A DNA stretch of 44,736 bases, taken from Candidatus Aegiribacteria sp. Its GTDB lineage: Bacteria; Fermentibacterota; Fermentibacteria; Fermentibacterales; JCC-6. Location of the stretch: assembly GCA_023138735.1 (NCBI GenBank), contig JAGLOY010000041.1:1-44736 (forward strand), given 5' to 3'. Below, in pieces: positions 1-21,582 of this stretch. The translations under genes were made by a program, and so were the position numbers. Positions within the stretch are counted from its first letter, which is position 1; every line of letters begins with the position of its first letter. The notes under the pieces are model-generated. The model ran no database searches. It saw nothing but the letters and a program-made list of their open reading frames with translations, and was not told where the DNA came from.

Positions 1-36
1 TCTCGGACGCGGGTTCGAATCCCGCCGCCTCCACCA
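1..36 (+). ncRNA. ssrA: 3' end of tmRNA (ssrA), 5' part outside window
   Basis: The sequence ends in a T-arm (GCGGG at 9-13, loop TTCGAAT, CCCGC at 21-25), a 7-nt acceptor strand CGCCTCC, a discriminator A and an encoded CCA at 34-36. The bases just before the T-arm (CGGAC) match the usual tmRNA 3' context CGGACGCGGGTTC better than a tRNA variable loop. tmRNA frees stalled ribosomes and tags the unfinished protein. Its 3' end is a known target of site-specific integrases, which fits the repeated copies downstream. A tRNA (for example serine) is the alternative, because the body of the gene lies outside the window. Confidence 0.72.
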
Positions 37-53
37 AATCATAACATATATAT

Positions 54-254
54 CTATATCAGTAAGTGGTTTAGTGACCTGGTATCGTGTGCCGTCTCCT
101 TCCGGTGCACGCATAGTGCACACTTCGAACTCGGAAGCACTGTCTCCCTGACCTTCTCAACATGGTCAGCGAGTCGGTCATTTCCAGCCCTTCCAGCCAC
201 ATGCAAATATCGAAAACGATCATACACTTCCCCTGCAAAACTCAGAATTCTCAT
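54..254 (-). pseudogene. C-terminal remnant of a tyrosine-recombinase-like gene
   Basis: A 66-residue minus-strand frame runs toward the RNA gene. It contains RYLHVAGRAGNDRLADHVEK, which resembles the end of a tyrosine recombinase, where the nucleophilic Tyr is followed by H-V/L and a helix of the type RLxxxVExL. It ends with SKCALCVH, a motif found again in every attachment module of this region. The catalytic core (Arg, His-x-x-Arg) is absent, so this is a relic or an integration-split end. Assignment to the recombinase family is by eye only. Confidence 0.45.
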
Positions 255-263
255 GTATCTTTC

Positions 264-292
264 TTGACTTCCCTCAGATAAGATTCTATTGT
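264..292 (+). promoter_or_regulatory. sigma70-type promoter for the C25 peptidase gene
   Basis: TTGACT at 264-269, a 17-bp spacer and TATTGT at 287-292. It lies about 50 bp upstream of the ribosome binding site AGGAGG (332-337). Confidence 0.5.
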
Positions 293-343
293 CTATTAAA
301 TTGATGTAGATGACTAATGCACTTGAATATCAGGAGGTGTTCG

Positions 344-3300
344 ATGTTGTCATTTCTTCTCCTCGCACTTACTGCTGGTACAGCGCCCATTCATACCACA
401 GTTGCAGACAGTACAAGGGTAGCGTTCATCGCGCAGACTCCCGTTTCCTGGGAATCTGTTGAGTACGACAGTCTGAGTTATATCAGATTCACAGACTCTC
501 CTCTAACAGACAGCATTGGCTATCCAGAACTCCCGATGATCACATGCCTGGTTGCTTTTCCGGACAGCGTAACACCCTACCTTGAATTCGCAGTATCTGC
601 CCAGAGGGAGCAATCTGTTGATCCTGTATATCCCGCACCGGCACAGGTAATGTCATACGAGTACACCCCTGCTGTTGTTGATTCCTTTGTGCAGGATTCC
701 ACTGCGTATGCATCTGATGAGTTCTGGCCTTCAGAGAGAGTCAGGATAATCGGCGAGACAAGGATATGCGATCAGCGATTGTTGATAGTGCAGATGTTCC
801 CGGCACAGTACAGGGCATCTGACAGCACTTTAAGCACAGTAATGTCATTTAGCGTTTCAGTTTCATTTGATAGTGCTTCGGCTGTCTGGAGCGGAACAGG
901 ACTGGGACCCTTCCAGAGGATGGTTGATGGGTCCTCAATTGTTGGATACCATCCTGTACTTCAGACGCGTGCTCCTGTACCTGAATACTTCGGAGAAGTT
1001 GAACCCCGAATTGGTCCGAGCCGTATGCCTGACTATGTGATTATCTGCGCTTCGGGGCTATACGACCAGTGCGGCGATGCTATTGATGATCTTGGGGAGC
1101 ACAGAGTAAGCCTTAATAATTTCGATGTGGCACTTGTTACCACTGATGCGATCCTGGAGGATTTTGGAGGAGCAGCTACCGTTATAACCGATGAGATCCT
1201 CAGAGATTTCACCGAGCACATGTGGGTCAACTGGGGGCAACCGACTGCTAAAAAGCCCGAATACCTTCTTCTCATCGGCGATCACGATGATGCTTACTAC
1301 GGAAGCGAACCATGGTTCCTGCCCACTCATGAGTACGGTATAACGCCGACTCCAGCATGGGACAAGATCGGCAACGATGAGTGGTACACCTACTTCAATT
1401 ACGATCGGGACATGGACAACGACTTCCCTGACATGATGGTCGGCAGATTATCTGTTAAGAACGGAGAGTGGGCTGATACCTTAAGTGTTCTGATACAGAA
1501 TCTCATCGATCTGGAGGATCCAGCTGGGCAGTCACCTTCACCCGATTACAGAAGAAGGATTCTCAGACTTGCCGGTACTGGACATGACGATAAAACGGGC
1601 CACCAAACATATCAGAGCTGGGATCCCGACAGGCTCTGGACGGCAGGTATTACCGACTGGATGGAGTACAACTATTCAACCTTCTACTGTGGAGATGGAA
1701 GGTATTTCACAGAAATAGATGGGAGTATTCTCAGAAGCTACGAGTGGCGTGACATCTGCCTGACCGAATTCGGAAAGGGTGCCGGAGTTGCATTCTACAG
1801 TAATCACGGCGATTTCCACATGTTAAGCGCCGGGCTTGAGTGGGTCTCACATCTCATACCTCTGGATCCGACCTTAGGCGCTCGGGACAGCACTTTCAAC
1901 AATTACCAGATCGAGGAGTACCTGAGTGCTATTGAAAACTATGCTCCGCCTTTTGTGCTTCTTCTGTGCTGCGGGTCAGGCACATTCAATCACACGATTG
2001 ACCATCATGAGAATCGCCCAACATACTTGGATTTATGCCACTTTGATAACGCGACTTCTCAGGTTGCAGCATATGATTTCGGTACCGACTGTCTTGGGGA
2101 GAAGCTTCTCAAATTCACCGATGTTCCTGTGGCCGGAGTATTCTGCGGATCCCTCTCCTCGAACATAAGCTCCTACGAATGTTACGGTAAGGGTATTCTT
2201 GAAGCTGTCTACATCAGAGGTTTTGGAATGCTTGGGGATGCTATTGCATCCGCAAGGACTGAATACGATGAATACTTTCTGGAGATTACAGGGTTCTATC
2301 GAAGAGAGATGGGTCAATTCAATCTTCTCGGAGATCCTGCTCTGGACATCAGTGACAGGGTCAAGTATCCCAACAGTTGCGATCTCCTGATCCATGAATG
2401 GGATATATCGGTTTCAGGATACCCTCTGGAAACTCCCACAGGAACCGACCTTGCCATGACATTCACCGTTAGAAACAGCGGAGCACTGGAGTCGGATGAA
2501 TTCGATGCAAGAATCACTTTCAGTTACGATGAATATTCTTTAATCGATTACGTTAGCTGTGATGAGCTTGCAGCCGGAGCGGAAGAAGAGTACGAGTATA
2601 CATGGGATTGTGCCAGGTGGTTCGATCCCCCGATGGAGATCACTGTAAAAGTTGAAGTCGATTACCTGGAGGAGTGCGATGACTCCTGGTGGGGGAATAA
2701 CACCGCCTCACTGGATGTTCAACTAAATGATACTTATCCCACAGAGAACGGATGGCCAATATCTGTTGAAGGTGTTGTCAGCACCACCCCATTGCTTGTT
2801 AATCTGGACGAGGATACTGATCTTGAGATCGTAGTACTCACCGGAACATTCTTAACTGCATTCGAGCCTGATGGTACAACAATTTGGGAGATCAGGGATC
2901 AGGGATTTTCCTCCGGGCAACACCCTCTGGCAGCCGATCTTGATGAGGATGGTGAGATTGAAATACTGGTGAAATACAGTGAAGGGATCAAGGTAATCAG
3001 TTCTGACGGCACGATTCTTGGCACACCCCTGACTTGCTCACCCAACGTCTTCGCTGTGGGCGATATGGATGAGGAGGAATCCGGCCTTGAACTTTGTATT
3101 GCACATGCTGATATCCTCTACCTTTACTATTGGAGCACAGTTACGAACAGATTTGTTTACATTACAGAAAAGGATTTCGACTATCAAGGATTCTGGTCTG
3201 GAAGCTCACTCGTTAGTACGGATCTCACAGGCGATTCTACCGAGGATGTGGCTTATTGCATCGGAGGATTTAGTGGAGGAGTAACGGAACCTGCACCAAG

Positions 3301-4018
3301 AATCCTGGTCGTGTACGATTGGGAATCCGATACAGCTCCTTATACTATGAAATGGGTTGAAGAGCCCTATACTGCCTATCTTGCAGCAGGAGAGCTTGCA
3401 GGCACGAAGATGGTCGGTTACTCCTTTGGAAGCTATGGCTCTGATCCATCAAGCAATCCTGGTCTCCTTGTTGAACCCGATGGTATTACTCAGGAGTTTC
3501 TCTGCGATAGGGGATCGGTGGATGCCGGTAATTTGAGATATGGTGTCTTTGCTGACTGGACTGTTGTCGAGGGTGCCGACGCATTCGTGCTTCCCTCTGA
3601 GGTGGAATGTTTGGCGTGGAATTATGAAGGAGAAATGATTCTAGACTGGCCCACAGGAGAATACCTTGGTTCAGAACTCAACTCCCTCATAAGCCCAACC
3701 GCATTGGGTGATCTGGATGAGTCAGGAGTTGCTGATGTCCTTTTCTGTACGGAACTTTCTGGAGATTATTCTTTGCTTGCGTTTAATTCAGATGGAGATA
3801 TTTTAGATAACCTGGATTTTCCGATAGTTCTTCCTGAGGAAGTATCAGCCCTCGGTGGATTCAGTATTGCCGATATTGATAGTGATGGTAATATAGAGAT
3901 TGTGTTCGGTACTACTGATGGCCTCCTTCACTGCTGGGAATTCGGGACATGCTCAACCGGTTATGCGCCCTGGGTTCAGTTCCAGCATGACGATGGAAGA
4001 ACAGGTGCGCTGGAATGA
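344..4018 (+). CDS. Secreted C25 (gingipain-type) cysteine peptidase with C-terminal FG-GAP repeats
   Basis: About 1224 residues. The ATG at 344 is preferred over one nine codons upstream because AGGAGG lies 6 bp before it and a signal peptide follows at once (MLSFLLLALTAG). Residues ~30-210 resemble the gingipain propeptide region. The C25 domain follows, with a candidate catalytic His in YSNHGDFHM (His about 488) and Cys in LLLCCGSGTF (542/543). The last third has FG-GAP/VCBS-like Asp-rich loops (NLDEDTDLEIV, DLDEDGEIEIL, DIDSDGNIEIV), as in a beta-propeller. There is no clear C-terminal sorting domain. The family cleaves proteins outside the cell. Its stop overlaps the next start (ATGA), so the two genes are probably translationally coupled. 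Confidence 0.85.
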   Translation: MLSFLLLALTAGTAPIHTTVADSTRVAFIAQTPVSWESVEYDSLSYIRFTDSPLTDSIGYPELPMITCLVAFPDSVTPYLEFAVSAQREQSVDPVYPAPAQVMSYEYTPAVVDSFVQDSTAYASDEFWPSERVRIIGETRICDQRLLIVQMFPAQYRASDSTLSTVMSFSVSVSFDSASAVWSGTGLGPFQRMVDGSSIVGYHPVLQTRAPVPEYFGEVEPRIGPSRMPDYVIICASGLYDQCGDAIDDLGEHRVSLNNFDVALVTTDAILEDFGGAATVITDEILRDFTEHMWVNWGQPTAKKPEYLLLIGDHDDAYYGSEPWFLPTHEYGITPTPAWDKIGNDEWYTYFNYDRDMDNDFPDMMVGRLSVKNGEWADTLSVLIQNLIDLEDPAGQSPSPDYRRRILRLAGTGHDDKTGHQTYQSWDPDRLWTAGITDWMEYNYSTFYCGDGRYFTEIDGSILRSYEWRDICLTEFGKGAGVAFYSNHGDFHMLSAGLEWVSHLIPLDPTLGARDSTFNNYQIEEYLSAIENYAPPFVLLLCCGSGTFNHTIDHHENRPTYLDLCHFDNATSQVAAYDFGTDCLGEKLLKFTDVPVAGVFCGSLSSNISSYECYGKGILEAVYIRGFGMLGDAIASARTEYDEYFLEITGFYRREMGQFNLLGDPALDISDRVKYPNSCDLLIHEWDISVSGYPLETPTGTDLAMTFTVRNSGALESDEFDARITFSYDEYSLIDYVSCDELAAGAEEEYEYTWDCARWFDPPMEITVKVEVDYLEECDDSWWGNNTASLDVQLNDTYPTENGWPISVEGVVSTTPLLVNLDEDTDLEIVVLTGTFLTAFEPDGTTIWEIRDQGFSSGQHPLAADLDEDGEIEILVKYSEGIKVISSDGTILGTPLTCSPNVFAVGDMDEEESGLELCIAHADILYLYYWSTVTNRFVYITEKDFDYQGFWSGSSLVSTDLTGDSTEDVAYCIGGFSGGVTEPAPRILVVYDWESDTAPYTMKWVEEPYTAYLAAGELAGTKMVGYSFGSYGSDPSSNPGLLVEPDGITQEFLCDRGSVDAGNLRYGVFADWTVVEGADAFVLPSEVECLAWNYEGEMILDWPTGEYLGSELNSLISPTALGDLDESGVADVLFCTELSGDYSLLAFNSDGDILDNLDFPIVLPEEVSALGGFSIADIDSDGNIEIVFGTTDGLLHCWEFGTCSTGYAPWVQFQHDDGRTGALE

Positions 4019-5430
4019 TCGGGTTCTGCGTTCTTCTTCTGACCTGCCTCGGGGTAACACCCGGCCCCGGGTGGAGTAACCCGATTCTGGTTACAGATTC
4101 TGCAAACACGATTAGACGTGTCCAGTACATCAACAGAGATTCTCAAGGCAGGTTTCATCTGGTGTGGGCAGGATTCAATGACGAGAGCAGGATAGCTTAC
4201 AAGATGTTTCTACTGGATGGTTCTACTGTGTATCCGGAAACAATGATCTCAAGGGATACACAAAGTTATTATCTATCTGTAGTAGCAATGGGAGACAGTC
4301 TCCTTGTATTCTGGAGGGAATCCAGCCCCATCTACTACGCCATCAGAAGTCTTGAGGATGGAAGTGAGATAACTCCTGCCACATATCTGTTCACCACTTC
4401 CACCCTCTATCCTTACATCAGAGCCTGTCCGGACAGTCTGGGAAGGCTTCATGTTCTATTCAACAGGGGCAAGGATGTGTATTATGCCGTCTGGACCCCC
4501 GCGCCCGGCTCAGGTTTTATCACTGATTACGAGTGGAAGGTGGAAGGTGCTTATGAGGGTGGAGTTCTTCTCGTGGATGGAAATCGAGTTCATCTGGTTG
4601 TTATGGATCCAGTCTATCATACATACGAATACCTGCAGTACGATCTGGAAGGGAATACCGTAATCCCGCTCACTGATTTCACTGTGGATGATATTTTTTG
4701 CAGCCGTGATCCGGAGCTGAGCCTGGATCAGGATGGCAACCTGATGGTTGTCGAGGATATTGTTGTCAGCTATGTGCTCTGGAAACTCGATAAGTTTACC
4801 GGTGCTACACTTATTGATGAGAAAGTAATAGTGTCCGATTTCCCGCCTGATATGGTCACTAGCACTCACTTCATCCTTCGCAATCTCCCTGGCGCAGACC
4901 AGTATTATCTCTGCTGGGCTAATGGAGGATCGTTGCAAAAAATCTTCTACCTTCTAATCGATGGTGATGGGAATGTCCTGCTGGACTGGCAGTTAGCCTA
5001 CGATTACAGCGATGAAGATCCTGAAGATCTGAAGTATATTGATGGTGTCGTTGATGATGCAGGCAACCTCTATATAGTCTATGCCCAAGTTGAAACAGAA
5101 CCGCAAATAGACTACTTTCCCACCTTCGGCTGGTTCAATCATGATTCTCTGGGGATTGAAGTTGAAGAGACTGTCCCTTCACCGGGAGTATCACTCAGAG
5201 CTTCACATAACCCCTCCTGTGGCAGTGTTCAGTTTTTCCTTGAGGGTGCTGATTCCATGGAACTTCAGGTCTTTGACATAAGCGGCAGGATGGTTGCAGG
5301 TGTACCCCTGTGCAATGGCAGTGGTTTTTGGAATGGAACCGGTTCTTCCGGTGAGAGATTACCTGCGGGAGTTTACACTGTTGTGGGAAATCAGGGAGTT
5401 TCTCTGCGCATTACTCTTCTCGGAGAGTGA
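4015..5430 (+). CDS. Secreted beta-propeller-like protein with C-terminal sorting domain
   Basis: 471 residues. The start overlaps the C25 peptidase stop by 4 bp, so they form one operon. The N-terminus is a signal peptide (MIGFCVLLLTCLGVTPGPGW). The middle has WD/BNR-like strands (RFHLVWAGFND, LLVFWRESSPIYY, YLCWANGGSL). The last ~80 residues are a FlgD/type-9-like sorting domain, with LQVFDISGRMV and a Trp-rich turn before LPAGVYTVV. Export through a type-9-like route and surface attachment are inferred from that tail. No catalytic motif is visible. It may be a partner or substrate-binding companion of the peptidase. Confidence 0.7.
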   Translation: MIGFCVLLLTCLGVTPGPGWSNPILVTDSANTIRRVQYINRDSQGRFHLVWAGFNDESRIAYKMFLLDGSTVYPETMISRDTQSYYLSVVAMGDSLLVFWRESSPIYYAIRSLEDGSEITPATYLFTTSTLYPYIRACPDSLGRLHVLFNRGKDVYYAVWTPAPGSGFITDYEWKVEGAYEGGVLLVDGNRVHLVVMDPVYHTYEYLQYDLEGNTVIPLTDFTVDDIFCSRDPELSLDQDGNLMVVEDIVVSYVLWKLDKFTGATLIDEKVIVSDFPPDMVTSTHFILRNLPGADQYYLCWANGGSLQKIFYLLIDGDGNVLLDWQLAYDYSDEDPEDLKYIDGVVDDAGNLYIVYAQVETEPQIDYFPTFGWFNHDSLGIEVEETVPSPGVSLRASHNPSCGSVQFFLEGADSMELQVFDISGRMVAGVPLCNGSGFWNGTGSSGERLPAGVYTVVGNQGVSLRITLLGE

Positions 5431-5468: not shown

Positions 5469-5818
5469 TATCATCGTGTAAGCTATGATGGATCATTCGT
5501 CTTCCCCGGTGGTCGACTGGACCATCACCAGGATTGCCGCACGGATCGACTTAGGCAGATCGAGCCAAGCATTCGCAACGATCTGAAGGTCTCGGGGTGC
5601 ATTATTCAAGTGCACGCATAGTGCACACTCAGGACGCAAACTACTGTCTGGATTCTGTTCGGAAACTGTGTGTGTTTTGTATTTACCAGGAATTTCATCT
5701 TGGAGCAAGTGTTTAGTTATGCAAGGATTTGTGCTATTTCTGTTACCATTGTGTCTGGGTTCTGTATGATGTAACATGTTGCCATGTAACAGGTTCGAAT
5801 CCCGCCGCCTCCACCATT
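5469..5818. repeat. Attachment-module direct repeat A1 (pairs with 7867-8216)
   Basis: About 350 bp repeated with only a handful of differences at 7867-8216, offset 2398 bp. It starts at TATCATCGTGTAAG, contains GTGCACGCATAGTGCACAC at ~5612, and ends at the tmRNA-3'-end copy (5792-5816). The two copies bracket the segment carrying the first VCBS gene, so that segment looks like a unit inserted or duplicated together with one repeat. Confidence 0.85.
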
Positions 5819-5820
5819 AG
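5493..5820 (-). pseudogene. Read-through recombinase tail, copy 1
   Basis: On the minus strand the frame runs through the tmRNA-end copy (WWRRRDSNLL, the antisense of the T-arm and acceptor). It continues into LHHTEPRHNGNRNSTNPC, then ECALCVH, then DLQIVANAWLDLPKSIRAAI, and stops at 5493. Copies near 8.2 and 19.2 kb conserve the same frame and motifs. No independent ribosome binding site or start is evident, so it is best read as the 3' end of a longer gene cut off by recombination at the attachment core. Confidence 0.55.
5792..5816 (+). repeat. tmRNA 3'-end copy 2 (putative attachment core)
   Basis: This is a perfect 25-bp copy of bases 12-36, from GGTTCGAATCCCGCC to CTCCACCA. The sequence before it (ATGTAACA) is not tmRNA-like, so only the 3' terminus is copied, as expected for an att site and not for a second tmRNA gene. 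Confidence 0.85.
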
Positions 5821-5990
5821 AAAGACCGTAAGTTCCTGTCATAAAGGGACTTGGGGTCTTGTATTATTTAGAGTGATTTTAAAGTGCACGCATACGACAC
5901 ACTCTGAATCCGATAGAAGAGTGTTGCAGACCTTTTCAGCAATTTACGGTTCACTCCACCGATGGATGCACTTTTCAACATCAGGCACAT
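5820..5990 (-). pseudogene. Right-flank recombinase C-terminus remnant, copy 2
   Basis: The minus strand encodes EKVCNTLLSDSECVVCVH and then DPKSLYDRNLRSF, followed by a stop and the att core. It aligns with the remnant at 54-254 (EKVRETVLPSSKCALCVH) and the one at 16316-16500. Upstream coding is broken by stops. Part of the DNA (ATAAAGGGACTTGGGGTC) recurs after the 16.3 and 19.2 kb cores. Confidence 0.4.
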
Positions 5991-6015
5991 AAGGTCCTGA
6001 CCCTTAATCTATAGT

Positions 6016-6231
6016 TTGCATAATTCTAAATTCATACGTTCTTCTGATAAATACGACCATTCTGTCGATGGCAGGCTTGTGACCCGGTATGAGAGTGAAG
6101 ATATTCAGGCAGGTAGAACAAACTTGCTTCTGAACGATGCAGGAGAGTATCCAACTGGGATGTACACAGTTTGCATTGAGGGATTGGATACAGGAAATAT
6201 TGTTAAGAAAGTAATCATTCTGAATGATTAG
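6016..6231 (+). pseudogene. Truncated C-terminal sorting domain of a lost secreted protein
   Basis: The 71-codon frame reads DGRLVTRYES...YPTGMYTVCIEGLDTGNIVKKV and ends LND. This is the tail of a FlgD/type-9-like sorting domain without its body. It is cut at the left by the attachment module. A shorter remnant with the same end (VKKVILLND) lies at 17248-17286, in front of the second VCBS gene, showing that both VCBS cassettes descend from an ancestor with another secreted-protein gene upstream. Confidence 0.6.
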
Positions 6232-6245
6232 GGAAAGTAGCAAAG

Positions 6246-7721
6246 ATGTATAAATACTTTGTTATCATATTTATGATCGCAATAACCACCTCCGCCCAGG
6301 CTGATTACATCTTCGAACTGGCATCTGAATATGAAGTTGAAGATGAATCGTGGCAAGCAATCTGTTTAGACGCTGGATATTTCAACGATGATGCATATCC
6401 TGATTTTGCTGTTGCGTATTTCTATGCAATCGGAGAAGACGCTTACCTATACACGTTCCTGGGAAATGGTGACTGTACATTCAGTGTAATGCCCACCGAA
6501 ATATTTGATTTCCCACTAGGGTCAATCACGGTAAATGATTTCGATAATGATGGGTATGATGATCTTCTTATTGGAGAAGGATATGCAGGTGGTGGAGGAG
6601 GACTTTATCACGAACTCCTCGTTCACATGTATAAAGGTAATGGAGACGGATCTTTTACAGAACTGGACACATTACATGTTATGAATGTCTGGGTAACTTC
6701 TGGGGATCTGAACGATGATGGAAACAATGATCTGGTTGTGTCAGGCTTTGAAAGTGGTAGTTTCGTAGTGTCTATAAAACTTGGTAATGGTGATTTCACT
6801 TTTCAGGAAACAGCAAGCTATGAAACATATCCGATACTACATACTGTCCAGATCATTGGTGATATGAACCTGGATGGTAATATCGATATTGGTGTACTTT
6901 GTTCTACTGGCTATAACGGGATTCAATTCCTTTATGGTAATGGTGAAGGTACTTTTCAGCCATGGGTTGGAGTAGGCGGTTATTTTCCTTGTGGACCATC
7001 ATACTGCTTTCTGGATGCAGGGGATTTCAACGAGGATGGTGTGCTGGATTTTGTAGCAACCTGTGGAGAAATTGTAGCGGATTATGATGTCGTTTTCCTT
7101 TGGGATGGAGACGAGTACATCCGGTCAGATTCGCTTACAGGTATAGGGGAGTGGGTTGAAGTAGAGGATTTCAATCTGGATGGTCATCTTGATATAGCAA
7201 TATCTACAATACTCGGTAGTATAGTTTATCCAGGATATGGTAATGGTAGTTTTTCACATGGCGCGGACAGTCTTCTCTTTCTAACTACAGAATATGACAC
7301 ATACGGCATGATATCTGAAGACTTCGACCTTGATGGAGATTTCGATCTAATCATATGCGAGCATAGTTATAGCCAACCAGATTACATTCGATGCTATGGA
7401 AACACCACCATCAACCTTGGTGTCGAGGAGCATGAATCCGGTTCAATATCTGACCTGCTCCTTGAAGTATCACCCAATCCATTTTCATCATCAGTCACTG
7501 TTTCAGCATCAGGATTTTTTAGTAATCCAAGCGATCTTCAAATCTTCGATCTATCCGGAAGATTGGTCAGCGAGATAGAACCTGTTTTCAATGGAAGTGA
7601 AGCAGTCTATCATTGGAACGGAAGATCGGCGTCAGGTGCAGAGCTTCCCGACGGGATCTATTCAGCAAGATTATCTTCTAATGATTCCAGTGCAGGTGTA
7701 ATGCTGTTGAAACTGGAGTAG
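6246..7721 (+). CDS. Secreted VCBS/FG-GAP beta-propeller protein with sorting domain, paralogue A
   Basis: 491 residues. A signal peptide (YKYFVIIFMIAITTSAQA) is followed by about seven FG-GAP/VCBS repeats with Asp-rich calcium-type loops (FDNDGYDDLLIGEGY, DLNDDGNNDLVVSG, DFNEDGVLDFVAT, DFNLDGHLDIAI). The C-terminal sorting domain from ~410 has SPNPFSSSVTVS, LQIFDLSGRLVSEIE and LPDGIYSAR. Such repeats form an integrin-like propeller; the ligand is unknown. The start lies 11 bp after the truncated sorting domain, with only a weak GGGAAAG ribosome binding site. Its paralogue is at 17292-18746. Confidence 0.8.
   Translation: MYKYFVIIFMIAITTSAQADYIFELASEYEVEDESWQAICLDAGYFNDDAYPDFAVAYFYAIGEDAYLYTFLGNGDCTFSVMPTEIFDFPLGSITVNDFDNDGYDDLLIGEGYAGGGGGLYHELLVHMYKGNGDGSFTELDTLHVMNVWVTSGDLNDDGNNDLVVSGFESGSFVVSIKLGNGDFTFQETASYETYPILHTVQIIGDMNLDGNIDIGVLCSTGYNGIQFLYGNGEGTFQPWVGVGGYFPCGPSYCFLDAGDFNEDGVLDFVATCGEIVADYDVVFLWDGDEYIRSDSLTGIGEWVEVEDFNLDGHLDIAISTILGSIVYPGYGNGSFSHGADSLLFLTTEYDTYGMISEDFDLDGDFDLIICEHSYSQPDYIRCYGNTTINLGVEEHESGSISDLLLEVSPNPFSSSVTVSASGFFSNPSDLQIFDLSGRLVSEIEPVFNGSEAVYHWNGRSASGAELPDGIYSARLSSNDSSAGVMLLKLE
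7476..7612 (+). repeat. 137-bp perfect repeat inside the sorting domain (pairs with 18513-18649)
   Basis: This stretch is base-for-base identical to 18513-18649, while the coding sequence on both sides of it differs at many positions. It codes for the core of the sorting domain. Gene conversion or recent exchange is the simplest reading. Confidence 0.8.
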
Positions 7722-7722
7722 T

Positions 7723-7830: not shown

Positions 7831-7866
7831 GATTGTAAATCCTTCCATCAGTGGTATTATCAGTTC

Positions 7867-8219: not shown

Positions 8220-8232
8220 TAAGAGATTCTAA

Positions 8233-12115: not shown

Positions 12116-12148
12116 GCTTAGGCGTTCATAGTTAATTCCGGTCACGTC

Positions 12149-14791: not shown

Positions 14792-14812
14792 TTGGACAAT
14801 AGTTTCAATCAA

Positions 14813-14820
14813 GGGGGGGG
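14813..14820 (+). promoter_or_regulatory. G8 tract as ribosome binding site of the next gene
   Basis: A run of eight G ends 3 bp before the ATG at 14824 and must serve as the ribosome binding site. Slippage of such a tract would change spacing only, so it could modulate translation. Confidence 0.4.
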
Positions 14821-14823
14821 AAT

Positions 14824-15822
14824 ATGAAAAAGCAGAAAAAGAACGGGTTCAGACTTCCGGATGTCCTGGAGCAGAAGCTTTCGGTTCTCAGGGCTATGAG
14901 GCGCGGCAATACATCTGATGATCACTGGAAAATAATGACAATTGAGAGTGAGTTGAATGACTCGGAGGATTCGGATGAACATAAAAGCATCACTCTGGCC
15001 ACAGCCGGCAAGATCTATGCGGAATCAAGATCGCATAGAAGAGCAATGCGCGAGGAGTACGGAAAGATAGTAAGGGGAATGGCTTCTTCCCCATTGCTGC
15101 GTCCTCTTCCTCCTCCTTTCCCTGATGATGAAGATGAGCGCTGGGATGATGAGTTTGTTGAAAGGACGAGCGCTAAAGATCTATCATCTCTGCGACTGAG
15201 GAACCCGATCTGGGGATGTGAGGAACCGTCAGAACCTCAGGGATTTGAACTCAGTTTCATTTCGAACTCATCAACCAGTGCATGGAATACATCCGATATC
15301 ACGAGTTACAACTGCGGAATCATGGGATGGTGTGATTCTGCCGTCGAACCGCCCAGGATTGCCAACATGAACGGCAAAGGTGTGATCGAAGGTGATCTGG
15401 ACCTTGACTGGGAGGGTATGGTTCCCGAGGACAATATCTACATGATGAATCCGACAATGGAGTTATGGCTCAGAGGATACTGTTTTGCCGAGGGTTACTA
15501 CAAGATAGGGGTGGATGCAAAATCGAGTGTCTACGTTGAAACGTCGATTATGATCAATGAAGATTTAATCAGCTACAACCATGTCCCTGTGGTATCCGTC
15601 GAATCGAGATACTCTGACAGTCATGTCCCCTTTGATCTGAGAATCTACCTGCACAGTGATGAGTTCCCCTTCAGGGCTTCCAAGGATCAGTTCCTGAGAA
15701 TGCTCATAAGACTTCACGGTGAAACCTGGACCAGGGGAGAAGGGGATGCGGAGATTTCTATTGGGGCATTCGGAGTGATAAGCAATACGGTAAATGATCT
15801 GAATATTCCTGTGATGCCCTGA
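14824..15822 (+). CDS. Hypothetical cytoplasmic protein
   Basis: 332 residues, no signal peptide or membrane segment. The N-terminus is basic (MKKQKKNGFRLPDVLEQKL). Residues ~10-90 are helical and charged, followed by a proline-rich acidic linker (LRPLPPPFPDDEDERWDDE). The C-terminal ~190 residues are probably all-beta (FELSFISNSSTSAWNTSDIT, MELWLRGYCFAEGYYKIGV, SYNHVPVVSVESRYSDSHV). I do not recognise the family. It shares its att-bounded cassette with the Cys-less peptidase-like protein, so they may work together. Confidence 0.6.
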   Translation: MKKQKKNGFRLPDVLEQKLSVLRAMRRGNTSDDHWKIMTIESELNDSEDSDEHKSITLATAGKIYAESRSHRRAMREEYGKIVRGMASSPLLRPLPPPFPDDEDERWDDEFVERTSAKDLSSLRLRNPIWGCEEPSEPQGFELSFISNSSTSAWNTSDITSYNCGIMGWCDSAVEPPRIANMNGKGVIEGDLDLDWEGMVPEDNIYMMNPTMELWLRGYCFAEGYYKIGVDAKSSVYVETSIMINEDLISYNHVPVVSVESRYSDSHVPFDLRIYLHSDEFPFRASKDQFLRMLIRLHGETWTRGEGDAEISIGAFGVISNTVNDLNIPVMP

Positions 15823-15838
15823 GCAGATTCAACGACTT

Positions 15839-15855
15839 GAGATCAGCGTGATCTC
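15839..15855. other. Small hairpin after the unknown gene
   Basis: GAGATCA-GCG-TGATCTC is a perfect 7-bp stem nested within GAGCAG...CTGCTC, 17 bp after the stop codon. No T-tract follows, so an intrinsic terminator is not certain. The rest of 15856-16108 shows nothing I can name. Confidence 0.35.
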
Positions 15856-16108
15856 CTGAACTGCTCCGGATCCTTTATGTAAGGATTCTGGTCGGTATTA
15901 CCTTTGATGGGTAGACCATGCGTTTAAGTTTCTTCTAGGTGGGAATACCCATTCATTCCCGAGTTCTGTCAATTCTGTCAGGAGGTCATAGCAGAAGTAA
16001 TAAACTAACCGAAGTCTCAAGAACAAACCTGTCACTGCCGAGTTGGCGTTCTTTGGTTATCCGGATCTTGAATACGTTTCGATCTCAAAATACATGATCA
16101 CCCCAATC

Positions 16109-16313
16109 GTGGCACGCATACGGCACACTTTGAGTGCAAACATCTGTTCAACTTCTGTTATGGAAGTGTACTGGTTTTGTCTTTGGCAAGGAATCCGCTC
16201 CTGAGCCAATGTCAGAATCTGCACGGATTTGTAGCATTTGTGTAGTGAAAGTGTACAGGTTCTGTCGAGCTAACTATATGTAAGGCAACGGTTTCGAATC
16301 CCGCCGCCTCCAC
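16109..16313. repeat. Attachment-module direct repeat B2 (identical to 11749-11953)
   Basis: Second copy of the 205-bp module bracketing the 4.4-kb cassette 11956-16315. Left of it the two copies share nothing. Confidence 0.9.
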
Positions 16314-16315
16314 CA
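16290..16315 (+). repeat. tmRNA 3'-end copy 5 (putative attachment core)
   Basis: Carries the extra T of copy 4 but retains the CCACCA end. Confidence 0.85.
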
Positions 16316-16500
16316 TTAACATGGCCTTAAGTTACTACCATAAAGGAACTTAGGGTCGTGTTTGTTTTGGAGTGAATTTTCCGTGCACGCATACGACACA
16401 CTTTGAATCCGATAGAACAGTGTTACCGACCTTCTCAGTAAACATCGGTGCACTCCACCGATGGATGCTCTTTCCATTATCAGGCTCAAATTGCAACCCT
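16316..16500 (-). pseudogene. Right-flank recombinase C-terminus remnant, copy 4
   Basis: One minus frame reads FTEKVGNTVLSDSKCVVCVH, then a stop; another carries HDPKFLYGSNLR before the core. It is closely related to the flank at 5820-5990, including the DNA motif GTGCACGCATACGACACAC at ~16382. It is frameshifted and has no catalytic core. Confidence 0.45.
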
Positions 16501-16547
16501 TGACCAATACCCGGGAAAACCGGATGTTCTTCTGACGGAGGTTAGAT

Positions 16548-16835
16548 ATGAGTCTTGAAAAAACACTTGCTGTGCTGAGAAAGCTGAAGCCTTTGCTCAA
16601 AGAACGTTTTGGGATCATAAGACTTGGTGTCTTCGGTTCTGTGGCTCGTAATGAAGCCGAAAAAGACAGTGATGTTGATATTGTTGTTGAAATGCCTCCA
16701 GATCTTTACGCAATGGTCCATGCAAAGGAACAGCTAGAAGAAGCCCTTCATACACCTGTGGATCTGGTTCGATACAGGAGCAGAATGAATGCTTTATTGA
16801 AGGAGCGCATTGAACGGGAAGCAATCTATGTCTGA
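16548..16835 (+). CDS. mntA: MntA-type minimal nucleotidyltransferase antitoxin
   Basis: 95 residues. The nucleotidyltransferase signature is complete: GVFGSVARNEAEKDSDVDIV gives GS-x10-D-x-D, with a later Asp in TPVDLVRY. In this family the enzyme adds AMP to a tyrosine of the HepT toxin and so silences it. ATG at 16548. The stop overlaps the downstream hepT start, the usual arrangement. It lies just right of attachment copy 5, so it is the first gene of its cassette. Confidence 0.88.
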   Translation: MSLEKTLAVLRKLKPLLKERFGIIRLGVFGSVARNEAEKDSDVDIVVEMPPDLYAMVHAKEQLEEALHTPVDLVRYRSRMNALLKERIEREAIYV

Positions 16836-17202
16836 TGTAAGACTATTGGAAGACGTAGCAGAGCACATATTGGAGAGCATCGAGAAAGTCGAACGCCGTT
16901 TCAGTGGCATTAAGGCTCCTGATGATTTTCTTAGGGACGATGAAGGTATCGACAGGCTGGACGGGATAGTGCTAATGCTTATCACTATCGGAGAGAATCT
17001 GAAGCGCTTTCAGAAATATGGTGGAAAGCCATTAATGGATGATCATCCTGATGTTGACTGGAAGGGCGCGATAGGAGTAAGAGATTTTCTAAGTCACCAT
17101 TACTTTGATCTTGATGCAGAGGTCATCTTCAACATTTGCGTAGATCATATCTCTGAACTGAAACACGCAATAGCAGATCTTCTGAAAAAACTGAAAAAGT
17201 AA
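16828..17202 (+). CDS. hepT: HepT-type HEPN RNase toxin
   Basis: About 124 residues from the ATG at 16828 (GGGAAG 8 bp upstream); a TTG six codons earlier is possible. The HEPN active site R-x4-H-x-Y is intact in RDFLSHHYFD, and the Tyr is the residue AMPylated by MntA. Its first helix (VRLLEDVAEHILESIEKVE) and DDHPDVDWKGAIGVRDF are typical. It overlaps mntA by 8 bp, forming one toxin-antitoxin operon that can stabilise the cassette. Confidence 0.88.
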   Translation: MSDVRLLEDVAEHILESIEKVERRFSGIKAPDDFLRDDEGIDRLDGIVLMLITIGENLKRFQKYGGKPLMDDHPDVDWKGAIGVRDFLSHHYFDLDAEVIFNICVDHISELKHAIADLLKKLKK

Positions 17203-17247
17203 CTCGTAGATCCTGTACACATTATACTGTTATAGCTGTGGATGTTC

Positions 17248-17286
17248 GTTAAGAAAGTAATCCTTCTGAATGATCAGGGGAAGTAA
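17248..17286 (+). pseudogene. Last codons of a lost sorting domain
   Basis: The frame reads VKKVILLND plus three codons and a stop. It matches the last codons of the truncated sorting domain at 6016-6231. Homology between the two VCBS cassettes starts here, so mntA-hepT replaced the sequence to the left. Confidence 0.5.
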
Positions 17287-17291
17287 CGGAT

Positions 17292-18746
17292 ATGTGTAAA
17301 TACCTTGTTATCATATTTATGATCGCAATAACCACTTCAGCCCGGGCTGATTACATCTTCGAGCTGGCATCCGAATATGAAGTTGAAGATGAACCCTGGG
17401 GAGCAATCTGTTTAGACACTGGATACTTCAATGACGATGCATATCCTGATTTTGCAGTTGCATATTATGGAGCAGAAGACAGCTACTTATATACATTCAT
17501 TGGAAATGGTGACTGTACATTCGATATGCTTACTACGGATATGTTTGATTATTCGCTTGGATCAATCACTGTAAATGATTTTGACAATGACGGGTACGAT
17601 GATCTTCTTATTGGAGAAGGATATGCAGGTGGTGGTGGAGGGATCTATCACAAACTCCTCATCCATTTGTATACGGGCAATGGTGATGGTACTTTTACAG
17701 AACTGGATACATTACATGTTATGAATGTCTGGATAACTTCAGGGGATCTTAATGCTGATGGCAACAATGATCTGGTTGTGTCAGGGTATGAAAGTGGTAG
17801 TAGCACAGTTTCAGTAAGACTTGGAAATAGTGATTATACTTTTCAGGATACAGAAAGCTATGAAATTCCTGGGAGTACTTTTCACACACTTCAGATACTT
17901 GGTGATATGAATCTGAATGGCAATGTCGATATTGGTGCAATTTGTTTCGATGGTTCTATCCGATTTCTCTACGGAAACGGTGATGGAACATTTCAGGCAC
18001 CGGTTAGTGTGGTGAATTATTTTCCTTGTGGACCATCGTACTGTTTTCTGGATTCCGGTGATTTCAATGAGGACGGTATGCCTGATTTTGTTGCTACCTG
18101 TGGAGCAATTGCAGCAGATTATGATATTGTTTTCATCTGGTGTGGAACTGGATACGGACAATCAGATTTATTGACAAGTGCAGGCGAATGGGTTGAAGTG
18201 GAAGATTTTAATCTGGATGGTCATCTGGACGTAGCTATTTCTACCTGCCTTGGCAGTATAGTCTATCCCGGTCTTGGAGATGGGAGCTTTTCACATGAGG
18301 CGGATAGTCTTCTCTTTCTATATACGGAATATGTTACGTACGGTATGATATCCGAGGACTTCGACCTTGATGGAGATTACGATCTTATTTTCAACGAAGA
18401 GTATCCTTACAAACCAGCTTACATTCGATGCTATGGAAACACCACTATCAACCTTGGTGTCGAAGAAGATGAATTGGGTCCAATATCTAACCTGATCCTT
18501 GAAGTATCACCTAATCCATTTTCATCATCAGTCACTGTTTCAGCATCAGGATTTTTTAGTAATCCAAGCGATCTTCAAATCTTCGATCTATCCGGAAGAT
18601 TGGTCAGCGAGATAGAACCTGTTTTCAATGGAAGTGAAGCAGTCTATCACTGGGATGGGAGATCAGAAACAGGAGCAGAGTTTCCCGATGGTATCTATTC
18701 CGCAAGGTTCTCTTCTACTGCTGTAATGCTGCTGAAGCTGGAGTAG
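17292..18746 (+). CDS. Secreted VCBS/FG-GAP beta-propeller protein with sorting domain, paralogue B
   Basis: 484 residues, colinear with the protein at 6246-7721: signal peptide (YLVIIFMIAITTSARA), FG-GAP repeats (DFDNDGYDDLLIGEGY, DLNADGNNDLVVSG, DFNEDGMPDFVATC, DFDLDGDYDLIF), and a sorting domain with SPNPFSSSVTVS and LQIFDLSGRLVSEIE. It lacks seven residues compared with A, two of the gaps being near the N-terminus (after VAY) and the C-terminus. It follows the MntA-HepT pair in its cassette. Divergence from A is clear except in the 137 bp that are identical. Confidence 0.8.
   Translation: MCKYLVIIFMIAITTSARADYIFELASEYEVEDEPWGAICLDTGYFNDDAYPDFAVAYYGAEDSYLYTFIGNGDCTFDMLTTDMFDYSLGSITVNDFDNDGYDDLLIGEGYAGGGGGIYHKLLIHLYTGNGDGTFTELDTLHVMNVWITSGDLNADGNNDLVVSGYESGSSTVSVRLGNSDYTFQDTESYEIPGSTFHTLQILGDMNLNGNVDIGAICFDGSIRFLYGNGDGTFQAPVSVVNYFPCGPSYCFLDSGDFNEDGMPDFVATCGAIAADYDIVFIWCGTGYGQSDLLTSAGEWVEVEDFNLDGHLDVAISTCLGSIVYPGLGDGSFSHEADSLLFLYTEYVTYGMISEDFDLDGDYDLIFNEEYPYKPAYIRCYGNTTINLGVEEDELGPISNLILEVSPNPFSSSVTVSASGFFSNPSDLQIFDLSGRLVSEIEPVFNGSEAVYHWDGRSETGAEFPDGIYSARFSSTAVMLLKLE
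18513..18649 (+). repeat. 137-bp perfect repeat inside the sorting domain (pairs with 7476-7612)
   Basis: Identical to 7476-7612 in paralogue A, while adjacent positions on both sides differ. Confidence 0.8.
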
Positions 18747-18915
18747 TCTCCTCAGCCATTCCTCGATGATATTCCTCACTTGGTCCAGAACCTCAAACTG
18801 GATTGTGTTCGGTATCAAACCCTTGAGCGGAGACTATGCATTTCAGATACTTCGAGTGGAAGTACCGCTCCATCTACTAGTTCTATCAGTTCTGTCGACT
18901 AGATGGATATTGGTT

Positions 18916-19222
18916 TCAATCTCTTTCGGCTTTCACTGATTTCACGATTGCCAAAATCGCAGCGCGGATCGGTTCAGGCAGATACGACCAAGCATTCACT
19001 ACATCCCAAAGATCTTCAGCCCAGTCCAGGTGTGACACACATATGACACACTTTGAGTGCAATACTCTGTCTGGATTCTGTTCTGGTTTTGTGTGGGTTC
19101 TGCTCTGACCCAGGATTTCCTCTTTTCTTAAGTGTTTGGTTTCGCAGTGATTTGTATCATTTATGTCAGTAATGTGTTGTGGTTCTGGATGGTGTAACAG
19201 GTTCGAATCCCGCCGCCTCCAT
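18916..19222 (-). pseudogene. Read-through recombinase tail, best-preserved copy
   Basis: The frame is open from right of the attachment core (NDPKFLYGNNFWSFQL), through its antisense (WRRRDSNLL), and on through HHPEPQHITDINDTNHCETK, THTKPEQNPDRVLHSKCVIC and VVNAWSYLPEPIRAAILAIV to a stop at 18916. That is over 100 codons without a stop, colinear with copies 1 and 2 and with many replacements between copies, which suggests selection on a protein in the past. No start codon with a ribosome binding site was found. Left of it (18750-18825) lies the antisense block also seen behind VCBS gene A. Confidence 0.55.
19200..19222 (+). repeat. tmRNA 3'-end copy 6 (putative attachment core)
   Basis: Matches GGTTCGAATCCCGCC and then GCCTCC, but ends ATAA instead of ACCA. 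To its right ATAAAGGAACTTAGGGTC repeats the flank seen after copies 2 and 5. Confidence 0.8.
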
Positions 19223-19383
19223 AATTGGAAAGACCAAAAATTATTACCATAAAGGAACTTAGGGTCATTTTATATTCCTTGTATTACCTCATTGCACTGT
19301 GGACTCGGAACCTCAGATCGAAGAGCTAATTGGCGAGTTTATCCGGGCGACTGAAAAGACTCGAACGGAATCCAGTTTGGTTC

Positions 19384-19940
19384 TTACTGGCGTCCTTTCG
19401 TTGATTTATCCAATTCTTCTCTGAAGCGGTTGAACAGTTCGATTTTTCCCTCTATGGTGGACCAGTCAGAAATGCATTTCATGTCCACATCATGAAGTGC
19501 GGTAACCAGTATAGCCTGTGCCAGAGACTGTGTATCACTCCAGTGGTAGAAGGCTGACAACCTGTCCATGACGCACTGAGTTGGTGTGAGAAGATTTAGA
19601 GTGGAATTTCCGATTGTTATTTTGTTTGTGCTGGAAACAGGGGAATAACCAATAGAGAGTGGACCGGGAGGAAATTCAATCAGTAGTTCTGTATCAGGAT
19701 GTGAAAAATATCGTCCCATACCCTTATTGAATCCAAGCTCTTCAAGAGCAATTTCTACTCGTTCCATGCTACTGAGAGTAATGAAATCAAGATCAGTAGT
19801 AAGGTAACGGTCATCCGAGTAAATCGATACTACAGCGCCGCCTGTGAGGACGGCGTGGATGTCTCTATTCGAAAGATGCTGGCATATTATTGCCGCAAGA
19901 CCAGCTATTCCGCATTCCCGCGATATCTTTTCAGTGTCTT
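19384..19940 (-). CDS. Nucleotidyltransferase-fold protein without a canonical start codon
   Basis: The open frame covers about 185 codons down to 19384, but the first ATG (19767) falls inside the domain. The conserved part begins far upstream: GLAAIICQHLSNRDIHAVLT, then GGAVVSIYSDDRYLTTDLDF (Gly-Gly and D-x-D of a nucleotidyltransferase), LIEFPPGPLSIGY and CVMDRLSAFYHW. These motifs match a widespread partner of winged-helix proteins with the same gene order. No ATG, GTG or TTG exists between the upstream in-frame stop (20005-20007) and 19767. Expression may occur by -1 frameshifting from the overlapping winged-helix gene at AAAGGGA (19941-19947), by a rare start codon, or not at all. Confidence 0.6.
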
Positions 19941-20276
19941 TCCCTTTGTCCGTGGCCTTCTCCTCTTCGTATAATAAGCTATTATCTCTTCCTCTGGAAG
20001 ATATTCAAGAGCCTTCTGGAGTAGATTCATCAGCTCATTCTGCAAAACGTACCTGGGATTAATCCTGTACAGTCTTGTCCTGCCAACGAGTCTGCTCTTG
20101 AGTATCCCAGCATCCTCAAGCTTCTCCATCTGATACTGAACCCTTTGTTGATTCATTAAGAAGTTATTCGCTATCTCCGTAGGATAGGAATCACCGAACC
20201 GTGCAATGTAGAAGAGAGTTCTGGATACAGTCTCTCCTAAAAGAGAGTAAATAAAACTAAAATCGTACATTTTCAT
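19905..20276 (-). CDS. Winged-helix regulator (ArsR-like fold)
   Basis: 123 residues. The helix-turn-helix lies at ~30-65 (YPTEIANNFLMNQQRVQYQM, then EKLEDAGIL), and the wing reads VGRTRLYRINPRY. The basic end is typical of the regulator paired with the nucleotidyltransferase (AYYTKRRRPRTKGK). It overlaps the partner by ~40 bp. Three GTTATAT sites lie just upstream and probably serve autoregulation. Confidence 0.75.
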   Translation of the reverse strand: MKMYDFSFIYSLLGETVSRTLFYIARFGDSYPTEIANNFLMNQQRVQYQMEKLEDAGILKSRLVGRTRLYRINPRYVLQNELMNLLQKALEYLPEEEIIAYYTKRRRPRTKGKTLKRYRGNAE

Positions 20277-20309
20277 CTTGACATTGCTCCTATATGAACC
20301 AATAAATTC

Positions 20310-20360
20310 AGTTATATAACAAAAATTTTAAGTTATATCACAAATCTATTTAGTTATATA
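20310..20360. promoter_or_regulatory. Three 21-bp-spaced operator-like repeats
   Basis: AGTTATAT occurs at 20310, 20331 and 20352, spaced exactly 21 bp (two helical turns). The first lies in the perfect palindrome GTTATATAAC (20311-20320); the others are GTTATATCAC and GTTATATAAG. They sit 34-84 bp upstream of the winged-helix start, where autoregulation would act. Confidence 0.6.
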
Positions 20361-20404
20361 AGAGTTGTCAATAGCTTTGGAATAACGAACTTGAAGATCA
20401 AGTT

Positions 20405-20494
20405 CTACTCCTTAGCCGCGCGGACCATCTCTAGGATTGCTACGCAGATTGACTTAGGCAGGTCGGTCCAGGCATACGCCACATACTTCAGGAA
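20405..20494 (-). pseudogene. Orphan recombinase-tail fragment
   Basis: The minus strand reads FLKYVAYAWTDLPKSICVAI, then LEMVRAAKE and a stop at 20405. It is the last ~29 codons of the read-through tail found at 5.5, 7.9 and 18.9 kb, but without the Cys motif or an attachment core. It therefore marks an erased junction inside the last segment. Confidence 0.5.
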
Positions 20495-20523
20495 CATCAT
20501 CCTTTCAGGAAACGTGGTTGAAG

Positions 20524-21120
20524 TTAATCGAAGATACTCTTAATACTGCCAAATGTAGCGGGTTGGAGATCTGATGATGAATAATCGATTTCCAGTCTTG
20601 GTCGATTTGTTGAACTCTCCTTCGAGTAGATGAAAAAGTAGTCGTTGTCAGTATCACCCTTATACACCTGAAAACCGTAGTTAGGTTCGGTTCCATCTAC
20701 AATTGCCTGGACCCAGTCAGTAACATAAATATCCCACCAGCCGTTTATTCCAGGTGCAACGAGGTCTTTGCGCCCGTTAAATCCTGGTTTGTTGCTCCAG
20801 GTTACAGTGCTCTCATCCCAATCCGCGTTATTCATCGTTATTCTTATCTCGTCTGTCGGGAAAGCTCCACCATGACTGAAGACGTATAATCTGATATAAG
20901 CGTCGTTGATGGTTACTCCTGAGTAAGGTGAGAGATCAAATTTCATGAGTGAATTTACCCAGCCGTTCTGATATCCAACCACGAATTTCGTTTCGCTACC
21001 AAAATTATACGCGGGGTCGTACTCCATAACGTAAGAATCATCAGTCGGGAGGAGCGATGCCGAATCAGCAATTGCACTAAACGAAAGAAAAAGCACGAAG
21101 ATTACTTTAAGACTTTTCAC
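20524..21120 (-). CDS. Secreted DNRLRE-domain protein
   Basis: 198 residues from a GTG with AGGAGGT upstream. A signal peptide (KVIFVLFLSFSAIADSA) is followed by one DNRLRE (CBM96-like) domain: LLPTDDSYVMEYDPAYNFGS, LMKFDLSPYSGVTINDAYIR, WDESTVTWSNKPGF, WDIYVTDWVQAIVDG and RPRLEIDY. The domain is a beta-sandwich found in secreted carbohydrate-related and surface proteins. It lacks the sorting domain seen in other secreted proteins here; the last ~20 residues are unstructured. Confidence 0.78.
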   Translation of the reverse strand: MKSLKVIFVLFLSFSAIADSASLLPTDDSYVMEYDPAYNFGSETKFVVGYQNGWVNSLMKFDLSPYSGVTINDAYIRLYVFSHGGAFPTDEIRITMNNADWDESTVTWSNKPGFNGRKDLVAPGINGWWDIYVTDWVQAIVDGTEPNYGFQVYKGDTDNDYFFIYSKESSTNRPRLEIDYSSSDLQPATFGSIKSIFD

Positions 21121-21557
21121 TATGTTTTACCTCCTGAGAGAATTCTGGCAATTGGAAAGTGGATTTTCCACAATCCCATGGTCTACTCACAAAGCAGCCA
21201 ATTCGACCCAATATTATCCAATTTCGCTACCGGAAACTGACCATACTACCCGAATTCCTCCGCCGTCAATGAAGAAACCCTCTGATCACTGCGAAAACCC
21301 CACATTGGTAACAACTTCACCCATGCAGTCCGATTGCAGAGTTTCTAACCGACTTCAATCTCAGGATTTGTCAGTTTCGATTATCGTTCAGCGTGAACCC
21401 ACTAAAACAGAACATGAATCACGTCATTCTCTTCTCTTCTTCATATCCTATTCCGTGACTAGCTGCACCTCTCAATAATCAACTGCGCTATGCTCTTTTC
21501 AGCTTCTATTCAGTAAGTTCTGTCAGTTATGTCAATCTAAACTATTGTAAGGCAATA

Positions 21558-21582
21558 ACTACAAATCTCGCCGCTTCCACCA
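21558..21582 (+). repeat. tmRNA 3'-end copy 7 (decayed attachment core)
   Basis: ACAAATCTCGCCGCTTCCAC plus CA matches the core with a few changes. Upstream AACTATTGTAAGGCAA matches the context of copies 4 and 5 (AACTATATGTAAGGCAA). It probably marks the outer end of the array. Confidence 0.6.

Follow-up and report, generated by a model that had tools for sequence, protein, structure and literature searches.

A tandem array of genomic units bounded by copies of the tmRNA gene 3′ end in Candidatus Aegiribacteria: probable serial integration at ssrA with loss of the integrase

The DNA analysed here, referred to below as the window, is a stretch of 44,736 nucleotides from Candidatus Aegiribacteria sp., a member of the Fermentibacterota (assembly GCA_023138735.1, contig JAGLOY010000041.1). 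It constitutes the whole of contig C129 in the genome of that organism (G000; 3.22 Mb, 192 contigs, 91% complete). At its left end lies the 3′ end of ssrA, the gene for transfer-messenger RNA (tmRNA), behind which are situated six segments (S1 to S6), each terminated by a further copy of that 3′ end, the core. The gene assignments derive from a Pfam scan of 20 of the 81 open reading frames (ORFs) of at least 80 aa in the window. Segments as such have no strand.

1–36, + strand: 3′ end of ssrA (tmRNA), with the core at 12–36; gene body on contig C188 (RF00023 and contig joining)
37–5791: S1, with a C25-type peptidase gene (317–4018) and the gene of a FlgD_ig-domain protein (4015–5430) (Pfam)
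5792–5816, + strand: core 2, exact copy
5817–8189: S2, with an FG-GAP propeller protein (6246–7721) (Pfam)
8190–8214, + strand: core 3, exact copy
8215–11930: S3, with a hybrid histidine kinase (8947–11202, − strand) flanked by 158-bp inverted repeats
11931–11954, + strand: core 4, 2 mismatches
11955–16290: S4, with ORFs 12149–14209 (− strand) and 14824–15822; no Pfam match at E≤0.1
16291–16314, + strand: core 5, 1 mismatch
16315–19199: S5, with a nucleotidyltransferase (16548–16835), a HepT-like RNase (16810–17202) and an FG-GAP protein (17292–18746)
19200–19223, + strand: core 6, 2 mismatches
19224–21557: S6, with a helix-turn-helix protein (19905–20276, − strand) and a CBM96 protein (20524–21120, − strand)
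21558–21581, + strand: core 7, decayed, 6 of 24 positions mismatched (counted by eye)

A preliminary description, made from the letters of the window alone, had taken the left end for ssrA, and this identification was confirmed. Positions 1–331 of C188 match the Rfam tmRNA model RF00023 with 122.5 bits, the overlap between C188 and the window is exactly 25 bases long, and ARAGORN recognized one complete tmRNA, with the tag AASLNWRIEITAA, in the joined sequence. It is apparent that a single tmRNA gene has been divided between two contigs.

The recurrence of the ssrA 3′ end on one strand, also claimed in that description, was borne out, as were the segment sizes of 2.4–5.8 kb. Allowing up to 3 mismatches, the 24-bp core GGTTCGAATCCCGCCGCCTCCACC occurs six times in the window, always on the + strand (positions 12, 5792, 8190, 11931, 16291 and 19200, with 0, 0, 0, 2, 1 and 2 mismatches, respectively), to which the decayed copy at 21558 is added; the mean number of matches in 100 shuffled controls was 0.00. 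Elsewhere in the 3.22-Mb genome the core was found within 3 mismatches at one site only, on C22, with 3 mismatches, so that it is not a common dispersed repeat. The decayed core has a relative in G002:C90, where part of the right arm described below is retained. The base preceding TTCG in the core is G in the tmRNA genes examined and G, T or C in the distal copies; because this base varies, strand exchange probably occurs to the right of it. Exact copies of the core were also found in 11 stretches of viral contigs, the flanks of which resemble tmRNA ends or the attachment copies of other bacteria, and the right arm of the present array was not recognized by eye in the flanks of any of these 11 stretches.

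In an all-against-all blastn comparison, the cargo of S1, S3, S4 and S6 showed no long mutual similarity. S2 and S5 are related, with left ends that are 82% identical over 196 bp and cargo and right ends that are 77.6% identical over 2028 bp. The nucleotidyltransferase and HepT-like RNase of S5 form an MNT/HepT-type pair that, of these two segments, is found only in S5, and no integrase was found among the scanned ORFs of either. Homologues of the window cargo occur in 30 of the 42 genomes of the order at E≤1e−15, the genome itself included. The inverted repeats that flank the histidine kinase gene of S3 lie at 8466–8623 and 11322–11479 and are 91% identical over 158 bp.

It had been stated that only the tmRNA 3′ end is copied at each boundary. 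That proved wrong: the right ends of S3 and S4 are 100% identical over 205 bp and those of S1 and S2 are 97.4% identical over 350 bp, core included in both cases. Some of the segment left ends are also related to each other. The approximately 205 bp that precede five of the distal cores in the window recur at distal cores in other species, from two genera, and are referred to here as the right arm.

5608–5791, + strand: right arm of S1; R1 match 5608–5744 (94.7 bits, model member), extended to the core; blastn to relatives
8006–8189, + strand: right arm of S2; R1 match 8006–8142, extended to the core; blastn to relatives
11749–11930, + strand: right arm of S3; R1 match 11749–11883 (model member), extended to the core; blastn to relatives
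16109–16290, + strand: right arm of S4; with the core, equal to the S3 arm over 205 bp; R1
19033–19199, + strand: right arm of S5; R1 match 19033–19168 (model member), extended to the core; blastn

Plain blastn of the window against 38 stretches taken from relatives gave similarity between the window right ends and those at distal cores in G002 (75%), G011 (90%, over 205 bp, to the S5 right end), G022 (68.5%), G025 (74%) and G028 (69%). A sequence-only model, R1, was then built, with the core excluded, on the region from −185 to −45 of 12 of the 17 arms collected at distal cores in ten genomes; two near-duplicates and three poorly aligning arms were omitted from the alignment. In the window R1 identified the five right arms at E≤1.3e−27 (three of them members of the model and two near-duplicates of members), with matches ending 31–47 bp before the cores. 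It also gave weak matches, with E about 0.003, at two left ends (104–144 and 16383–16410). In the 42 genomes of the order R1 matched 25 places, distributed over 12 genomes, of which 16 directly precede a core. The other nine comprise the left arm of the G035 element described below, a match preceding the decayed core of G002, a match truncated at the end of its contig and six that are not followed by any core. These coreless arms lie at G016:C132:10701–10836, G022:C52:180467–180537, G001:C2:2053–2185, G001:C32:202237–202364 and G007:C102:543–674 and 5494–5628. Those of G016 and G022 stop at identical bases, CAACGGTT, as though, from that point on, the arm had been deleted or another site fused to it.

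A motif of the GCACGCATA type is present in the right arm, where inspection by eye also shows TGT at 11-bp spacing in two clusters. Pairs of TGT at a distance of 11 number 78 in the 17 arms, as against 7.1±2.5 in 200 shuffles (largest value, 15); the arms are related by descent, so these pairs are not independent events. Such phased direct repeats are reminiscent of the arm sites of tyrosine integrases or of their accessory proteins.

Neither a complete integrase, as the preliminary description had noted, nor a conjugation gene was detected among the scanned ORFs of the window. A tyrosine recombinase associated with the core was, however, found in two relatives of the same family, Candidatus Sabulitectum silens and Fermentibacteraceae BB12 (G035 and G022). 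That of G035 is an intact protein of 364 aa (PF00589, 71.5 bits; PHROG 1, integrase), encoded on the minus strand beside the tmRNA core, with its last codon starting 15 bp past that core; a 60% identical integrase occupies the same position in G022. No match to integrases of this type was found in G000 at E≤0.001, and the five listed of its six PF00589 matches are all on contigs other than the window. In a scan of GTDB contigs the integrase pair retrieved three relatives, namely the G035 and G022 contigs themselves and one distant sequence from the Planctomycetota.

The element of G035 spans 31.9 kb to the next core (G035:C13:34538–66449; L086, L087). Of its 31 listed ORFs of at least 150 aa, 14 were scanned besides the integrase (ten with Pfam, six with PHROGs, two with both). 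Among the matches are genes for type I restriction, a protein with a SIR2 domain, a serine recombinase and DUF4011, together with genes of phage type (an exonuclease, an anti-repressor and a replication initiator); no capsid gene was among the matches of the 14 ORFs.

Remnants of such an integrase were sought in all six frames of the window with profiles of its C-terminus, since plain tblastn gave nothing there. The first profile contained three sequences (G035, G022 and an interior copy from G022). Its two best places in the window were the left ends of S4 (E=2.6e−5) and S1 (E=0.0018), the best match in the reversed control having E=6.0. In the second profile, to which three left ends from G008, G011 and G016 had been added, the left ends of S4, S2, S5 and S1 were matched at E≤2.3e−6; the next match had E=1.9 and the best control match E=19. 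In the S4 remnant a stop codon occupies, by eye, the position of the catalytic Tyr.

93–191, − strand: decayed integrase C-terminus at the S1 left end; 96–191 with integrases only (E=0.0018), 93–188 with left ends added (E=2.3e−6)
5872–5946, − strand: probable integrase C-terminus remnant at the S2 left end; E=2.5e−7 with left ends added, E=34 with integrases alone
12019–12144, − strand: decayed integrase C-terminus at the S4 left end; top match in the window with integrases only (E=2.6e−5)
16368–16436, − strand: probable integrase C-terminus remnant at the S5 left end; E=6.2e−7 with left ends added, E=21 with integrases alone

Outside the window, remnants were detected by plain tblastn itself at an interior core of G022 (E=1e−11) and, as a short match, in G035 (E=3e−6).

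The state of the site was compared among relatives by means of the PFOR gene, which marks the native flank.

22628–26183, − strand: end of the insert and PFOR; homology with the empty-site relatives restarts at about 22628, and the PFOR gene extends from 22647 to 26183

In seven loci the distance from the start of the tmRNA core to PFOR is 1.16–1.25 kb; six of these loci (G006, G008, G010, G012, G017 and G018) belong to the genus of the window and one (G019) to its family. The corresponding distance is 22.6 kb in G000, 2.5 kb in G020 and about 0.7 kb in G040, which belongs to another family. These differences in spacing indicate that some species have an empty site and others an occupied one, and relatives carry the same core with differing numbers of segments, as the preliminary description had anticipated. 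G011 has native flank and PFOR after a distal core, and in G016 a coreless right arm ends 112 bp from PFOR. In a second genus, cargo that adjoins the tmRNA in G029 is separated from it in G031 by 10.9 kb, with one full unit and a further 3.5 kb, the latter starting at a core, in between. The arrays of G025 and G028 share a 1345-bp cargo stretch that is 96.7% identical, whereas their PFOR loci are only 85.6% identical. In 26 of 30 tmRNA-bearing contigs the downstream contig end is the nearer one (p=6e−5), which fits variation behind the tmRNA, although any repeat would have the same effect. Between 21585 and 22628 in the window the native flank of the relatives was not found, with the exception of the last ~70 bp; a seventh unit, since lost, may therefore have preceded position 22628. 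The G008 assembly contains two tmRNA genes, on C127 (L058) and C209 (L059), of which one has nothing inserted behind it whereas the other is followed by an island-like left end; the assembly is perhaps a mix of strains.

Taken together, these data argue with good confidence that the array arose by serial integration at ssrA, with loss of the integrase and retention of the attachment arms. The suggestion of integrase attachment sites at the tmRNA gene, made in the preliminary description, is thus supported by the ssrA-derived cores, the arms and the integrase at the core in relatives, and its phrase 'serial insertion with loss' by the decayed integrase ends and the empty sites. On this interpretation small genomic islands would have been integrated repeatedly at the ssrA 3′ end by a phage-type tyrosine integrase. 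In the putative autonomous form the minus strand would carry the integrase gene at the left end, with the last codons of that gene forming part of the left attachment arm. Members of the array would retain only the last ~23–42 integrase codons (clearly so in S1 and S4, probably so in S2 and S5, with none found in S3 and S6), together with the core that restores the tmRNA and, in five of six, the ~205-bp right arm. Incoming units would enter at the tmRNA, displacing older ones outward, and this fits the rise in core decay with distance (0, 0, 2, 1, 2 and 6 mismatches), six points being few. Such cargo-only units, which resemble satellites or cis-mobilizable elements (CIMEs), may remain mobile by means of an integrase acting in trans, a possibility already raised in the preliminary description, and the chances of this are judged to be even or a little better. 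Extrapolating from the sequences, the integrase would act on these arms, and the units would move in trans and have a route between cells.

Several observations weigh against this interpretation. Exact repeats of 205 bp could mislead short-read assembly as to the order of S3–S5. The R1 results are partly circular: the 16 matches that precede a core consist of 12 model members and 4 cores that were previously known, and hence do not provide independent support, and six further matches are not followed by a core. R1 missed the arm of G023, and its scan of the window yielded no right arm for S6. No right arm was found in G028 after the cargo shared with G025, so that movement of a whole unit would be conjecture. 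As regards the integrase, the profile of integrases alone missed S2 and S5, with the E values given above, and the three left ends added to the second profile were chosen by eye, so that the second run indicates kinship of left ends more than kinship to integrases. Neither profile detected a remnant at the S3 or S6 left end. Plain tblastn with both integrases gave no remnants in the seven left ends of the window at E≤0.5, and its reversed control gave one match at E=0.017.

The alternative that survives best is that all segments were complete islands with an integrase of their own when they inserted and that the integrase was lost later, nothing being moved in trans. This explanation shares the accretion history preferred above, and its standing, which is that of a possible though somewhat improbable account, concerns the trans step only. 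The decayed integrase remnants at the left ends, among them that of S4 with its stop codon in place of the catalytic Tyr, are what it would lead one to expect, as is the approximate increase in core decay with distance from the tmRNA, and it corresponds to the usual history of CIMEs (PMC5704250). It accounts less readily for S2 and S5, which share ends and cargo and lack an integrase, a situation that is simpler if their common ancestor was already integrase-less. The non-coding right arms, moreover, are recognizable across two genera in integrase-less units, and the identical arms of S3 and S4 are preceded by unrelated cargo.

An extension in the opposite direction would be a dedicated non-autonomous cassette system, in which cargo between an integrase-remnant left arm and the 205-bp right arm is added at the tmRNA by an integrase acting in trans and passes between species. 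This is considered tentative and rather unlikely; if it were true, the Fermentibacteraceae would run a double-stranded analogue of the integron alongside true integrons in one genome.

It is very unlikely that the core is a dispersed repeat, or that the array originated by tandem duplication and unequal crossing-over between cores. The paralogy of S2 and S5 and the near identity of neighbouring right arms would accord with duplication, and they suggest that homologous exchange between arms may have reshuffled ends. The restriction of the core outside the window to the C22 site, the lack of long cargo similarity among S1, S3, S4 and S6 and the empty sites in relatives largely refute it as an origin, but it may have operated as a secondary process.

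The array had been called integron-like, and it does consist of modular units with boundary sites in a single orientation. In addition, G000 encodes two full integron integrases (TIGR02249, 357.7 and 353.2 bits), at C169:12906–13829 (L258) and C127:14936–15856 (L259), with attC-like repeats on both contigs; the cut-off for a full integron integrase was passed by none of 14 control genomes. All 10 TIGR02249 matches in G000 are on C169, C127, C101, C9 and C2, and none is on C129, the window. The attC motif of G000 has no match in the window, compared with 5 and 3 on C169 and C127. Five window boundaries are unfolded (z from +0.46 to +1.29, + strand only), and of two left-end stretches tested, 16312–16350 folds slightly (z=−1.83) and 5813–5850 does not (z=+0.43). 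For the attC stretches of the integron contigs, five folds (both strands of one site and one strand of three others) gave z from −2.06 to −5.31 in four cases and −0.53 in the fifth. A stricter attC pattern gave no folded candidate in the window, nor on the true integron contigs, and is hence uninformative. A chromosomal integron or superintegron, with IntI acting on attC-like sites at cassette ends, is therefore hardly credible and was rejected, given the absence of the attC motif, the unfolded boundaries, the location of IntI on other contigs, units of up to 5.8 kb, a shared site that is the tmRNA end and remnants that match another recombinase, a phage-type tyrosine integrase at the left end. 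A broken third integron integrase is present in G000 at C101:12310–12929.

The view that the array is unlike an ordinary island was too strong, since the ssrA islands of Dehalococcoides are much alike. In PMC3146451 these are described as tandem islands that follow ssrA and are delimited by ~20-bp copies of its 3′ end, with 15 of 31 lacking an integration module, the 3′ end of the integrase gene overlapping attL and a conserved 15-bp motif directly upstream of distal repeats; CIME-like accretion is proposed by the authors. Layout, repeats, module-less units and the overlap of the integrase 3′ end with attL are thus shared by the two systems. The Dehalococcoides recombinase is of the serine type (DsiB with DsiA, in a six-gene module; same source), whereas here a tyrosine integrase is found in relatives, with a right arm of ~205 bp and repeats spaced 11 bp. 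A DsiB-type module was not encountered at attL, where G035 and G022 have a PF00589-type recombinase, and no search based on DsiB was made.

CIMEs have lost integration genes, keep attL and attR, and occur in tandem at one target gene (PMC5704250). In the present array, units are likewise bounded by repeats of the target-gene 3′ end, and the site is empty in seven loci of relatives; by sequence, arms have been kept and integrases lost, with right arms at five of six distal cores and remnants at two left ends by the profile of integrases alone, or at four once left ends of other genomes are added to it. The array differs from accretion of integrative and conjugative or integrative and mobilizable elements, as portrayed there, in that the integrase-bearing relative in G035 has phage-type genes and no conjugation gene is among the scanned ORFs of the window. 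A looser parallel is provided by the additive flexible genomic islands of Alteromonas and the Methylophilaceae, in which cassettes are added at one tRNA gene (PMC4119200, PMC10872708), with repeats of the last 20 bp of that gene in the Methylophilaceae (PMC10872708). In the present array, by comparison, the target is the tmRNA gene, and attachment arms and integrase remnants are described. The present array was not found described in literature on Fermentibacter with integrase or integron, a search that covered few subscription journals. Tycheposons are a further class of cargo element found at tRNA genes; they are associated with tyrosine recombinases, although some of them have no recombinase of their own.

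The Fermentibacterota are known mostly from genomes, and the array marks one place at which variable genes are loaded. Its attachment site, together with the arms, is precisely defined, and relatives provide a likely integrase. As a natural series of integrase-less units, it also raises the question of what a minimal satellite must retain. Two cassette systems, a true integron and the tmRNA array, are found together in one genome.

Some further features were observed. A stretch of ~175 bp near the decayed core (about 21190–21366) is matched many times in genomes of the genus. At G000:C190:3556–6557 there are paralogues of the second S1 gene, preceded by an 88% identical copy of window positions 258–370, and no core was found on C190 within 3 mismatches. 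In G037, from another family, an integrase C-terminal remnant with the tyrosine motif kept is situated at the tmRNA (L032, G037:C50), beside a frame that reads, by eye, like an IS3-type transposase. Finally, three adjacent tyrosine recombinases of about 350–380, 319 and 434 aa are encoded at G011:C8:552–2904 and at G025:C110:864–3219; they are reminiscent of recombinase-in-trio elements.

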